Of a DNA stretch of 25,783 nucleotides, positions 10,130 to 18,907 are shown one piece after another; the stretch's first letter is position 1, and each line of letters opens with the position of its first letter. Under the pieces are notes generated by a model that saw nothing but the letters and a program-made list of their open reading frames with translations, ran no database searches and was not told the DNA's origin. The stretch lies in IMG/VR virus record IMGVR_UViG_3300045282_000016, positions 1-25,783 of that record; one strand, 5' to 3'. The stretch comes from a virus. The translations under genes were made by a program, and so were the position numbers.

Positions 10130-11032
10130 TTAATCTCTTGACCAGTAGTCTTTCTTCAAATGGTTCTCGAGGTGCTTCTTGGCATGTTCGAGTAGATGAT
10201 TGGCGTGGTGGAATGCTTCGTGGGCATGGGCACGATCGGTGTGCTTGTTTGCCATATCTTCGTGATGATCAGCTTTCGCTTTGTCTGGGTTCGGACCTGA
10301 CCAAGCCTTCTTGGCTTCTGCCTTATGGAAATCGGCTGCCTCGTGATGAGCCTTTGCGTGCTCTTCCTGTTGAGAAGACCAGGTAGAGCCACCGTGACCG
10401 CTTGTCACAGCGTGGTCGAGATGATGAACGCCCTTCGACTCATTCTCTCTCTTGTAATGATCGACAGCGTGATTACCATATTCTTTTGCCTTGGCCTCAT
10501 GACCCTTGGCGAGTTCTTTGTGATGCTCTTCGACTGGCTTGTGATCAGATGAATACGAAAGCTTCTTGTGCATCTCTGCAGCTTCATCGTGTTTCTTCTG
10601 TAGGCCACGAGCTTCTTCAGAAGTCGAAGTCTTCTTGACTGCTGTATGAGCCTCGTGGTCCATCTCGTGTGAACCGTGTGGTTCGAGCTTACCAGTGCCA
10701 TGGTGGATCTTGGCAACGACCTTGTGACCATCGTGGTAGGTCGATTCATGGCCGCCCCACTTGCGAACAGGTTGGAGACCTTTCTCGGCGACTTCTTTGT
10801 GTGCAGATTCGAGGTTCGACTTGTGCTCAGCCGGAGTCACATCGATCTTTTCTTTGCGTGAGTATCTCGAGTTTGCCTCGTGATTGGCATTGAACTTGTC
10901 GTCGTGGCCGCTCTCGTGCTTGAAATGCACGTCGCGCTTGCCTACCTTGGTGACCGTACCGTAGTGTTCACCCTGCTTGAAATGTTCGCCGGGCTTCCAG
11001 TCTTCTTTCATGAACTCTTCGAACGATTTCAT
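10130..11032 (-). CDS. Histidine-rich putative internal head protein (300 aa)
   Basis: An extremely hydrophilic protein with about 44 histidines (about 15%) plus many Lys, Glu and Ala. It starts MKSFEEFMKE|DW, strongly resembling the capsid-targeting sequence of T4 internal proteins (MKTYQEFIAE|A), which gp21 cuts after Glu. After residue 120 it is built from loose helical repeats of the form HH-x3-A-x2-H-x3-A, for example HHKELAKGHEAKAKE, HHEAADFHKAEAKKA and HHEDMANKHTDRAHAH. It occupies the T4 67/68 position and overlaps the 97-aa gene upstream (ATGA), directly before protease 21. I infer a core or DNA-associated protein packaged in the head, with histidines possibly binding metal or DNA. 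I do not recognise a named family; the function is unknown. Confidence 0.8.
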   Translation of the reverse strand: MKSFEEFMKEDWKPGEHFKQGEHYGTVTKVGKRDVHFKHESGHDDKFNANHEANSRYSRKEKIDVTPAEHKSNLESAHKEVAEKGLQPVRKWGGHESTYHDGHKVVAKIHHGTGKLEPHGSHEMDHEAHTAVKKTSTSEEARGLQKKHDEAAEMHKKLSYSSDHKPVEEHHKELAKGHEAKAKEYGNHAVDHYKRENESKGVHHLDHAVTSGHGGSTWSSQQEEHAKAHHEAADFHKAEAKKAWSGPNPDKAKADHHEDMANKHTDRAHAHEAFHHANHLLEHAKKHLENHLKKDYWSRD

Positions 11033-11322
11033 TTCAGGTCCTTCTTTTTCTTCTCGATTCTCATGAGAGACTCGTGATAGTGTTGTAGATGTTCGGCCGC
11101 AGAGCGATGGTGCTCACTCATCATGTGATGATTGTGAGCTTTGTTTGCATGAGCTTGAGCTTCACTGGCTGGGAGACCTTTTTCACGGGCCGCTGCCGAG
11201 TGCTTCTCATACTCTTGACGATGTGCGTGTTCTTCTTGCTTATGCTGCATGACATCGTAGCCGCTCTTGAAAGCGCCAGCACGATAGTTCTCAAGCATCG
11301 CAAATTCTTCGAATGACATCAT
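11029..11322 (-). CDS. Small histidine-rich putative internal head protein (97 aa)
   Basis: A 97-aa protein with 13 histidines. It starts MMSFEEFAMLE|N, which shares SFEEF and a nearby Glu cut site with the 300-aa neighbour. The rest is one or two amphipathic charged helices (HKQEEHAHRQEYEKH, then HHRSAAEHLQHYHESL) ending in a KKKK cluster. It resembles a single repeat unit of the neighbouring protein, so a duplication origin is plausible. The ATG at 11322 overlaps the stop of the preceding gene (ATGA); a second ATG follows directly at 11319. The position between portal and protease matches T4 genes 67/68, small prohead core proteins, but sequence similarity to those cannot be claimed. Confidence 0.78.
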   Translation of the reverse strand: MMSFEEFAMLENYRAGAFKSGYDVMQHKQEEHAHRQEYEKHSAAAREKGLPASEAQAHANKAHNHHMMSEHHRSAAEHLQHYHESLMRIEKKKKDLK

Positions 11323-16379: not shown

Positions 16380-17996
16380 TCAGAACATCGACGACGGATA
16401 TTGTATGAATTCACTGTCATCCGTGCCATCGTCAAGGAATCCAAACGGCACAGAATACTCATCCTGGTGGAGTAGATTGTCATGGACGAGGCGGCGGACA
16501 TTGACGTCGACCATCTCATGGAAGTATGGCTGTGATGCAAACCAGCCGAACATCACAAGCGTCATGACGATGTCATCTGTCTTACCATCCGAGGCCTGGT
16601 AGCTGTTGTTGCGCTTCACGAAGCTCGAAAGCTCGACAATCGTGTCGAAGTCTTGGACTTTGAGCTGATCCGACTCGATCAGACTCTTCAGAGATGAGCA
16701 ACCAAGGAGTTTCGTGCGCTTTGTGGTTCGAACACCGTACTCAATTTGCTTGATGTTGCCACCCTTGATCACGTTTTCGGCTCGCTGAGTTCTCGAGATC
16801 AAGACGTTCTCGTATTCGTAGTCGATCCAGAGTGCGTCGACGCACTGCTTACCGACGCTGTTCGTCTCGACAATGACCAGAGCTTCGTTGTATTCCTTGC
16901 CGGTCTTGTTCACGAGATCTGCCAAGAGCAACGGATCCATGATATTGGATCTCAACATGGCGACCTGTGTGAACGGAGGAGCCGTGCAGTCGATGACAGT
17001 ACAGACAGAGTAATCTCGACCCACGCCTTCTGAGACGTCGACAGTGATAACGTATGAGTTTCCTTTGACCGGTTCTGCATAGATCTTGAAGTCTCGGTTG
17101 TCTCCGAGAGTCTTGTATGGTTCCGCAAACGCGAGTTGCTGGAGTTTGGCACCAGATATGAGTGTGTCCGAACTGCCGAGGAACTCTGTCAAGAATTCCT
17201 GATTGAATTGGCGCTCTGACATGTTTCGAAGTTGCTGGTCTTTCCAGGCTTCGTCGCGCTTCGGGTGCTCGTACCAATGTGCCTCGTCGGTCACATACTC
17301 GTTCTTCTTGTTGATCGCATCTGTCCAGAGCTTGTAGAACAGATTCATACCATTCGGAGTCGAGGTGATGAAGATCTTGGTCGATGTACCTGAGGTGACT
17401 ACGGGATACGTACCAGTATAGAACTCGACGTCGTTCTCAACGAACGCGAATTCGTCTAGATAGAGGACGGAGATTGTGCGACCACGGACGCCGCTGCCGG
17501 TCGTTGCAGAGGTGAAGATTTCAGAGTGGTTGCCTAGGAGTACGTTACCCTTGTTCCATGTCTTGACACCCGGCTGCATCCACCACGGAAGCTCCTCATA
17601 CATACGTTGGATACGAGCCATGATTTCACGTGCCTGTGCTGCCTTGTGGGCCAGGATAGCGATCGTGAAGTCGAAGTTGAAGAGTGCGTACCAGAGAAGA
17701 ATCGAGGCAACCGAGACGGACTTACCGGACTGACGTGGCCATTTCCAGATCGAGAATCGATTGTCGATCAGCTTCTGGATTGCTCGCTTCTGGAAGTCGA
17801 ACATCTTGAAGTTGACCAGACCTTTGTCGAGGTCGATGATCTTGCAGTACGTTTCTATGAAGTACTGGTGATCCTCACGACACTTATCAATCTCGTCGAG
17901 TTGCCATTGTTCAAGTCGGAGATTGACCCCTGCGTTCTTGAGATTGATGTTGCCATTGTAGCAATCGCGCCGATTGCGTCCATCTTTGTACTTCAT
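16380..17996 (-). CDS. 17: Terminase large subunit, packaging ATPase and nuclease (T4 gp17-like)
   Basis: A 538-aa packaging motor (T4 610 aa; the N-terminus is shorter here). ATPase domain: Walker A PRQSGKS (87-93), Walker B VLYLDE (177-182) and coupling motif TSTPNG (211-216). RNase H-like nuclease domain: VDVSEG (Asp320), VIVETNS (Glu377) and KTDDIV (Asp474/475). It pumps DNA through portal gp20 and makes headful cuts. The ATG at 17996 has no strong Shine-Dalgarno (GGGA at about -15). The conserved Trp-rich/IETYCKIIDLDKGLV block starts only about 30 residues in, so no large 5' piece is missing. Unusually, about 500 non-coding bases separate it from gene 16. Confidence 0.97.
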   Translation of the reverse strand: MKYKDGRNRRDCYNGNINLKNAGVNLRLEQWQLDEIDKCREDHQYFIETYCKIIDLDKGLVNFKMFDFQKRAIQKLIDNRFSIWKWPRQSGKSVSVASILLWYALFNFDFTIAILAHKAAQAREIMARIQRMYEELPWWMQPGVKTWNKGNVLLGNHSEIFTSATTGSGVRGRTISVLYLDEFAFVENDVEFYTGTYPVVTSGTSTKIFITSTPNGMNLFYKLWTDAINKKNEYVTDEAHWYEHPKRDEAWKDQQLRNMSERQFNQEFLTEFLGSSDTLISGAKLQQLAFAEPYKTLGDNRDFKIYAEPVKGNSYVITVDVSEGVGRDYSVCTVIDCTAPPFTQVAMLRSNIMDPLLLADLVNKTGKEYNEALVIVETNSVGKQCVDALWIDYEYENVLISRTQRAENVIKGGNIKQIEYGVRTTKRTKLLGCSSLKSLIESDQLKVQDFDTIVELSSFVKRNNSYQASDGKTDDIVMTLVMFGWFASQPYFHEMVDVNVRRLVHDNLLHQDEYSVPFGFLDDGTDDSEFIQYPSSMF

Positions 17997-18017
17997 TTAG
18001 AAATTGTATCCCAATGC

Positions 18018-18094
18018 GGTAGATTCTACCCTATATGAGTATATACTCAGAAAGTAGTACTGGTCACAACAAGAACGGGGCAGCCGTCGGCTAC
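18018..18094 (-). other. Hairpins in the gene 17 leader
   Basis: Three inverted repeats lie between the putative late promoter and gene 17: GTAGCC/GGCTGC with loop GAC (18080-18094), the self-complementary GAGTATATACTC (18037-18048) and GGTAG/CTACC with loop AAT (18018-18030). They would fold in the 5' leader of gene 17 mRNA close to its weak ribosome-binding region and could limit large-terminase translation. Confidence 0.5.
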
Positions 18095-18124
18095 AAGTAG
18101 TCGCGACGTATCTTATACCCAAGA

Positions 18125-18132
18125 TATTTACC
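18125..18132 (-). promoter_or_regulatory. Putative late promoter for gene 17
   Basis: GGTAAATA on the minus strand, sharing TAAATA with the other late octamers. It begins about ten bases after a terminator-like hairpin and 129 bases before the gene 17 ATG. Confidence 0.6.
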
Positions 18133-18135
18133 AGG

Positions 18136-18160
18136 AAGAAAGACCATCGTCATGATGGTC
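18136..18160 (-). terminator. Possible terminator after gene 16
   Basis: GACCATC, loop ATGAC, GATGGTC (7 perfect base pairs), followed by TTTCTT on the minus strand. The stem is moderately GC-rich and the T-run is interrupted, so termination may be partial. Confidence 0.5.
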
Positions 18161-18179
18161 AGAGCGACCCGAGAAGCTT

Positions 18180-18272
18180 CTTAGAGCTACGGGTGTTATC
18201 TTTGAGGCCTGACTTGCTTCATTGATATGGCGGATTGTCTGTTTCATAGACCAAACGCAGAGCGACGGGTGT
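18180..18272 (-). repeat. Direct repeat pair in the structured region
   Basis: ACACCCGTCGCTCTGCG at 18256-18272 and ACACCCGTAGCTCTAAG at 18180-18196 match at 14 of 17 bases in the same orientation. A third partial copy (GTCGCTCTG) lies at about 18160-18168. Confidence 0.5.
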
Positions 18273-18282
18273 ACCGCAATCC
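18232..18282 (-). other. Possible three-way RNA junction
   Basis: GGATTG (18277-18282) pairs with CAATCC (18232-18237). It encloses a small CGG/CCG hairpin and a GTCT/AGAC hairpin (18237-18251). Such a closed multi-branch fold is not expected in simple spacer DNA. The pairing was found by eye only. Confidence 0.4.
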
Positions 18283-18329
18283 CACATCCTGTTCCTTGAT
18301 GAAAGGAATTACTCTGAAGTCGATTCATG

Positions 18330-18355
18330 TAGTTTGTGCCCGCTCGGCCAAACTA
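18330..18355 (-). other. Long GC-capped hairpin
   Basis: TAGTTTG-GCC, loop GAGCG, GGC-(A)-CAAACTA: a 10-bp stem with one bulged base, the strongest hairpin in the interval. No T-run follows. It contains GGCCGAGCGG, which resembles a tRNA D-arm but is explained by the stem. Confidence 0.6.
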
Positions 18356-18493
18356 TGACTGCTCGATAACGATCGACAGGAAGGGTAGCAGCGATTGATG
18401 TAGACGAAGTCTACAGAATGAGCTTGAAGCGAACGAAGTGAGATTCAACAGATTGCTTGATGTACCAGATGAAATCAATGGCTAGCTATGAGC

Positions 18494-18907
18494 TCATTGT
18501 TCTGAAACAATCTTGGCCTCTTCGGCTTTCTGCCTGAGGTAGTCTTCTGTGGATCCGATAAAGACGGCTGTCTGATGAATGGTCGGTGCATGTGGCGGAT
18601 CGTTCTTCGATTCCTTTCGAACATGCTGTTCACGAGACATCGTAACGAGTTGATTTTGTAGTTCAGCTGCTACCTTCAAAAGGGATGCACCTGCTTGGTA
18701 CATCTTATCCGATTGTGCCTCTCTCATGAGACTGAACATACCAGGTAGGGCTTCCATGGTCTGCTTGATCATCTCGTGCATGTTCTCTCGAGCAGACGTG
18801 AAATCTTCTGTCACATCTGGATGCATCTCAACTTCTGGTCTTGGAACCAAGGCCATCGGAGTTGCTGCATCTAGAGCCTGAGAAATGCTGTCAAGTTCTT
18901 GTGTCAC
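18494..18907 (-). CDS. 16: Terminase small subunit (T4 gp16-like)
   Basis: A 137-aa helical protein (T4 gp16 is 164 aa) that recognises phage DNA and stimulates gp17 in packaging initiation. The central region has two long helices (FTSARENMHEMIKQTMEAL, then a Met/Gln-rich segment). The C-terminal IHQTAVFIGSTEDYL closely parallels T4 NATVFMGSPTELM, which is the main basis of the call. The start is GTG at 18907, overlapping the gene 15 stop (GTGA), with an AGAAGAGA Shine-Dalgarno upstream. After its stop comes the long structured gap before gene 17, unlike T4 where 16 and 17 overlap. Confidence 0.87.
   Translation of the reverse strand: MTQELDSISQALDAATPMALVPRPEVEMHPDVTEDFTSARENMHEMIKQTMEALPGMFSLMREAQSDKMYQAGASLLKVAAELQNQLVTMSREQHVRKESKNDPPHAPTIHQTAVFIGSTEDYLRQKAEEAKIVSEQ

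Follow-up and report, generated by a model that had tools for sequence, protein, structure and literature searches.

Our analysis indicated that the interval between the two terminase genes of this viral sequence is a noncoding RNA gene, a reading to which we assign a probability of about 0.68: it would encode a multi-helix RNA, probably on the plus strand, with its own promoter and a paralogue elsewhere in the genome, acting in trans and probably made early in infection. The predicted RNA, of ~400-500 bases, appears conserved, folded, and previously uncatalogued, and is best read as a new family of structured phage noncoding RNA.

The window (the whole stretch of DNA that we analyzed) is a 25.8-kb viral fragment, in which PHROG matches identify the genes on both sides of the gap:

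16380-17996, minus strand: terL (gp17), terminase large subunit (E 4e-59), the downstream flank
18494-18907, minus strand: terS (gp16), terminase small subunit (E 3.5e-13), the upstream flank

The spacing between them is exactly 497 nt and holds no credible gene, in agreement with the original prediction, which had also correctly noted that genes 16 and 17 overlap in T4. TerL of the window is 52-64% identical to that of the other RNA-bearing phages. Elsewhere in the window, amid structural genes (10130-11322), two neighbouring predicted proteins of 300 and 97 aa are very rich in His, Lys, and Glu.

A terS-terL gap of ~500-620 nt is common to Menderavirus (phages of Stenotrophomonas; gp16-gp17 spacing, 506-507 nt), Xanthomonas phage X1 (497 nt), Variovorax phage V45v66 (~620 nt), and Acidovorax phage ACP17 (~590 nt), making five lineages with the window. 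Among ~200 other T4-like loci (freshwater and marine IMG/VR contigs, cyanophages, Pelagibacter phages, pf16, and T4), terS and terL abut or overlap in most, are 65-200 nt apart in a few, and are farther apart at one locus with a very distant TerL. The freshwater IMG/VR relatives L065, L109, L166, L175, L193, and L197 have terS-terL gaps of 188-194 nt. L129, pf16, and the cyanophage and Pelagibacter phages that we checked lacked either the gap or the RNA. In the TerL tree, the five lineages with the gap group together as a single clade (support, 0.983), so a single gain of the element is probable. Homologues were located by position and motif, because blastn with the window gap gave no match in phages. 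Scans of IMG/VR with TerL, TerL sub-regions, and motifs recovered only the known clade, and scans of genome_contigs and plasmids revealed no homologues.

The elements of the copy in the terminase gap (copy A) are given below, with P values that are not strict probabilities, as the nine divergent copies compared are few and related; the effect is large and was reproduced in two subgroups.

18040-18425, plus strand: proposed noncoding RNA copy A (folding z -3.47), its start set from the putative promoter and its end uncertain, maybe ~18490
18082-18109, plus strand: helix E, near-invariant AGCCGTCGGCT-N4-5-GTAGTCGCGACGT in the window, Menderavirus, and X1
18142-18160, plus strand: hairpin D, 7 bp, kept in position with differing sequence in the window, Menderavirus, and X1 (arm-swap P 0.008, five sequences)
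18166-18196, plus strand: helix S5 (ACCCG/CGGGT; arm-swap P 5e-6), with a middle pair that is A-U, U-A, or C-G across copies
18197-18228, plus strand: helix S4, the strongest covariation (arm-swap 0/200,000 permutations)
18232-18282, plus strand: closing stem S1 (18232-18237/18277-18282; arm-swap P 5e-6), with S3 (18237-18251) inside
18166-18289, plus strand: match to covariance model R1 (core S5-S4-S1; 90 bits, E 1.9e-21), the window being among the five training sequences of R1
18326-18357, plus strand: helix H1 (TAGTTTG...GGC hairpin; arm-swap P 0.0003-0.001, eight copies)
18399-18415, plus strand: 7-bp hairpin TGTAGAC/GTCTACA, recognized by inspection only, with hairpins of other sequence at a like place in Menderavirus A and X1A

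Since plain MAFFT alignment of whole gaps followed by RNAalifold did not align the structure, we used anchored arms and trimmed segments. In the arm-swap test, arms were set only by their position relative to invariant anchors, and the 3' arms were exchanged between sequences, whereupon pairing was lost. S1 is paired in 9/9 copies, its arms being GGATTG/CAATCC in the window, GGGAG/CTCCC in Menderavirus A, GGAAG/CTTCC in Menderavirus B, GTGAA/TTCAC in X1B, GTCAT/ATGAC in V45A and ACPB, GCTGC/GCAGC in V45B, and GCTAC/GTAGC in ACPA; in S4, both sides changed in 7 of 9 pairs. Trimmed alignments gave both-side changes in 16/26 pairs in clade I (five sequences; covariation score 0.581 versus 0.204 in shuffles, 0/500) and in 13/19 pairs in clade II (four sequences; 0.798 versus 0.340, 0/500), and covariation collapsed in both clades when the partners were slid. 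S3 gave no signal in the fixed-window test, its one line of backing being the aligned clade I segment, and a long-range inverted repeat of the window (I1) was not conserved in relatives.

These comparisons bear on several earlier claims. The stems reported at 18330-18355 (within H1), 18142-18160 (hairpin D), and 18399-18415 are all present, and the possible three-way junction at 18232-18282 was confirmed by the covariation of its closing stem, S1, across nine homologues. A 17-base direct repeat was not recovered as such; what we found instead, one repeat of 16 nt (75% identity) and another of 14 nt (93%), is unremarkable. The covariation proposed as a check on related phages was borne out, with helices that covary and no shuffle reaching the observed scores. 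Selection on RNA structure is thereby strongly supported by the nine copies, although the ground first offered for it, the density of pairing, did not hold: inverted repeats alone are insufficient, and the case rests on comparison with relatives.

Using blastn with the Menderavirus and X1 gaps, we detected second sites on the opposite strand within the same genomes. This copy B is a paralogue of copy A with identical motif order, and it lies in the following places:

L277 2594-3127, antisense to neighbours (terL-sense orientation): Mendera B, in an otherwise empty gap
L276 2713-3197, antisense to neighbours (terL-sense orientation): X1 B, in an otherwise empty gap
L293 ~383-861, antisense to neighbours (terL-sense orientation): V45 B, in an empty gap whose neighbours are ORF calls only, V45 being unannotated
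L305 2303-2811, antisense to neighbours (terL-sense orientation): ACP17 B, in an otherwise empty gap

Copies A and B were found tens of kb apart, B being distant from both terS and terL; in the window, a second copy would lie beyond the reach of the fragment. Covariance models R1 and R2 (one per subgroup, with training genomes matching by construction) gave exactly 2 matches per genome in 9/9 complete clade genomes. They found neither a third copy in clade genomes nor a copy in outgroups, although such copies were detectable, and gave no convincing match in 21 other records. With filters off, R1 ranked V45 B first (E 0.043) and ACP17 B second (E 0.13), with place and strand correct, which supports the homology of the two subgroups; the reverse filters-off search with R2 returned nothing convincing. 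The copies are flanked by terminase genes or by hypothetical and NAD-salvage genes, the latter (nicotinamide/nicotinate phosphoribosyltransferase and NadR-like) lying near copy B in Menderavirus (L277 2594-4992) and X1 (L276 2713-6162). Between Menderavirus genomes, substitutions in copy A (L033, L042, and L044 versus L037) are concentrated in the final 30 nt before terL and those in copy B (L278, L043, and L045 versus L277) at the copy ends, with nearly invariant cores, a distribution that again points to the RNA.

Searches against known families yielded no counterpart. Rfam cmscan at permissive E-values found no relevant match in the window gap, the A copies, or the B copies, nor did the GOLLD and ROOL covariance models; the Rfam group I and group II intron models were likewise without a match, and ARAGORN detected no tRNA or tmRNA in the 25.8-kb window. 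Parts of X1A resemble group I intron motifs, which we dismissed as chance, given the wrong motif order and the negative Rfam result. The Menderavirus paper (PMC9025141) is silent on any noncoding RNA, and the literature that we searched, including the Ps15 genome paper, contains no description of this one.

We consider it likely that the RNA is encoded on the plus strand, opposite terL. The original prediction had taken the minus strand as the folded one, but across the whole gap that strand was not more stable than its shuffled versions (z -0.88, matched by 18/100), and the plus strand was (z -2.48, matched by 0/100); thus, the folding-energy comparison suggested at the time came out favourably for the plus strand only. 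Within 18040-18425, z was -3.47 on the plus strand versus -0.80 on the minus strand. Whole-gap folding z in the nine copies did not separate the strands, and neither did counts pooled over the tested helices (43 G.U versus 51 A.C on the terL strand, near the swapped-arm baseline). The non-Watson-Crick positions of S4 in the window, Mendera B, X1A (twice), and X1B read as A.C on the terL strand and as G.U on the plus strand, as does one position of S1 in X1A. In copy B of Menderavirus, the variant 317T>C converts U-A into U.G on the plus-equivalent strand only, and the mean probability of the comparative pairs favours that strand in 7/9 copies (P 0.07).

A candidate start for such a transcript lies just outside the folded region:

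18004-18032, plus strand: putative weak sigma70-like promoter TTGTAT-17-TACCCT, with its -10 start 55 nt before helix E

This site is nonsignificant alone, its sole backing being a position common to Smp14, Mendera B, X1A, and V45B. On the plus-equivalent strand upstream of helix E, these copies carry sigma70-like sites with a 17-nt spacer and a -10 hexamer 53-66 nt from the helix: TTGTTT/TATAAT in Smp14 (P 0.003), TTGTGA/TACAAT in Mendera B (P 0.007), CTGATA/TAGAAT in V45B (P 0.003), and TTGTCC/TACCAT in X1A. The joint score for this band was 55 versus 24.5 ± 9.1 (1/150), the band having been picked after looking. No good site was found in X1B or ACPB, and a scan of the terL strand of eight copies revealed no comparable aligned sites. 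A search for a clear terminator of the RNA found none. On the neighbours' strand, a G+C-rich TTCG hairpin is present at the E end of copy B in Menderavirus (L277 3055-3079) and ACP17 (L305 near 2303-2330); if the RNA is on the plus strand, its first stem-loop could be the very hairpin that carries a terminator annotation next to Mendera B.

We therefore favor a model, built from these sequence comparisons, in which the site near 18004-18032 would start a plus-strand RNA that runs through helices E, D, S5, S4, S1/S3, and H1 towards terS, with the diverged copy B forming a unit of its own at another locus in every complete genome. That one fold persists at two unrelated loci, with promoter-like sites of its own, argues for a trans-acting RNA, working as a folded RNA or a ribonucleoprotein, over a gp17 leader or a packaging site. 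The host-type promoter suggests that expression is probably early.

We weighed this model against several others. Rather unlikely in our judgment is an RNA on the terL strand, with copy A processed from a late terS-terL transcript and copy B made from its own promoter. In this arrangement copy A would be read in the same direction as terS and terL, a promoter-like TTGACC-17-TATTGT is also present just upstream of Mendera B on the terL strand, some pairs of S3 and S5 are G.U on that strand, and a convergent unit would be shielded by the terminator-like hairpins that lie on the neighbours' strand by Mendera B and ACP17 B. However, on the terL strand S4 is broken by A.C mismatches in 4/5 clade I copies, folding and pair probabilities are weaker, and aligned promoters are absent. 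That 60-70 aa ORFs are annotated in the gap by some Menderavirus records might suggest a small protein gene or its remains; this is hardly credible, as the nine copies share no ORF in length, frame, or sequence on either strand, and the terL strand of X1A lacks any ORF of ≥35 aa.

We regard as improbable both of the more specific functions originally offered for the gap. A leader controlling translation or stability of the terL message would fit the position of the element, which adjoins terL in five lineages, but it leaves unexplained a second copy of the fold, tens of kb away and antisense to its neighbours; the RNA is moreover probably encoded opposite to terL, and relatives with abutting genes manage without it. 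A DNA-level site, such as a gp16-bound pac site or a replication origin, could account for a location beside terS and for two copies per genome in inverted orientation, and T4-like genomes are packaged by a headful mechanism. Compensatory changes in many helices of drifting sequence nonetheless indicate single-strand folding rather than a protein-bound duplex, the G.U/A.C asymmetry of S4 is unexpected for DNA, the element is missing from most relatives that have the same terminase, and a packaging site next to gp16 would leave the second copy, distant from both genes in every complete genome, unaccounted for.

Of the known systems, homo-oligomeric RNA cages are a feature of ROOL/GOLLD-like nanocage RNAs, and the phi29 packaging RNA (pRNA) is a phage RNA tied to DNA packaging. 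Copy A resembles pRNA in sitting between packaging genes, but the gap RNA is much larger, has a second copy away from such genes, lacks an Rfam match, and is absent in relatives with the same kind of terminase. GOLLD and ROOL are large structured phage RNAs of unknown function (PMC12286853). Like GOLLD, the gap RNA is a large structured phage RNA, yet it measures ~400-500 nt rather than over 800, occurs in two copies per genome without matching the GOLLD model, and has no tRNA gene in its 25.8-kb window, whereas GOLLD often lies beside tRNA genes. With ROOL it shares a large multi-helix form, and it differs in lacking an Rfam match, in its genome context, and in its two copies per genome. Since the element combines a covarying multi-helix structure with the absence of a conserved ORF, it is best read as belonging to the same broad kind as GOLLD and ROOL, namely large structured phage noncoding RNAs, while being unrelated to either.

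More tentatively, two paralogous early structured RNAs per genome may constitute a new class of trans-acting RNA machine, with a mechanism unlike that of other families, vertically kept in a clade of T4-like phages that infect Stenotrophomonas, Xanthomonas, Acidovorax, and Variovorax and directed, for example, at host transcription, translation, or defence, or working as an RNA assembly; we hold this possibility to be less likely than not. Large structured phage RNAs are rarely found, and what they do has yet to be explained. The present RNA was apparently overlooked in at least nine sequenced genomes, where its loci are annotated as empty or as small ORFs, and its presence in cultured phages with tractable hosts makes deletion and pull-down directly feasible. 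On this reading, a gap between terminase genes can itself be a gene.
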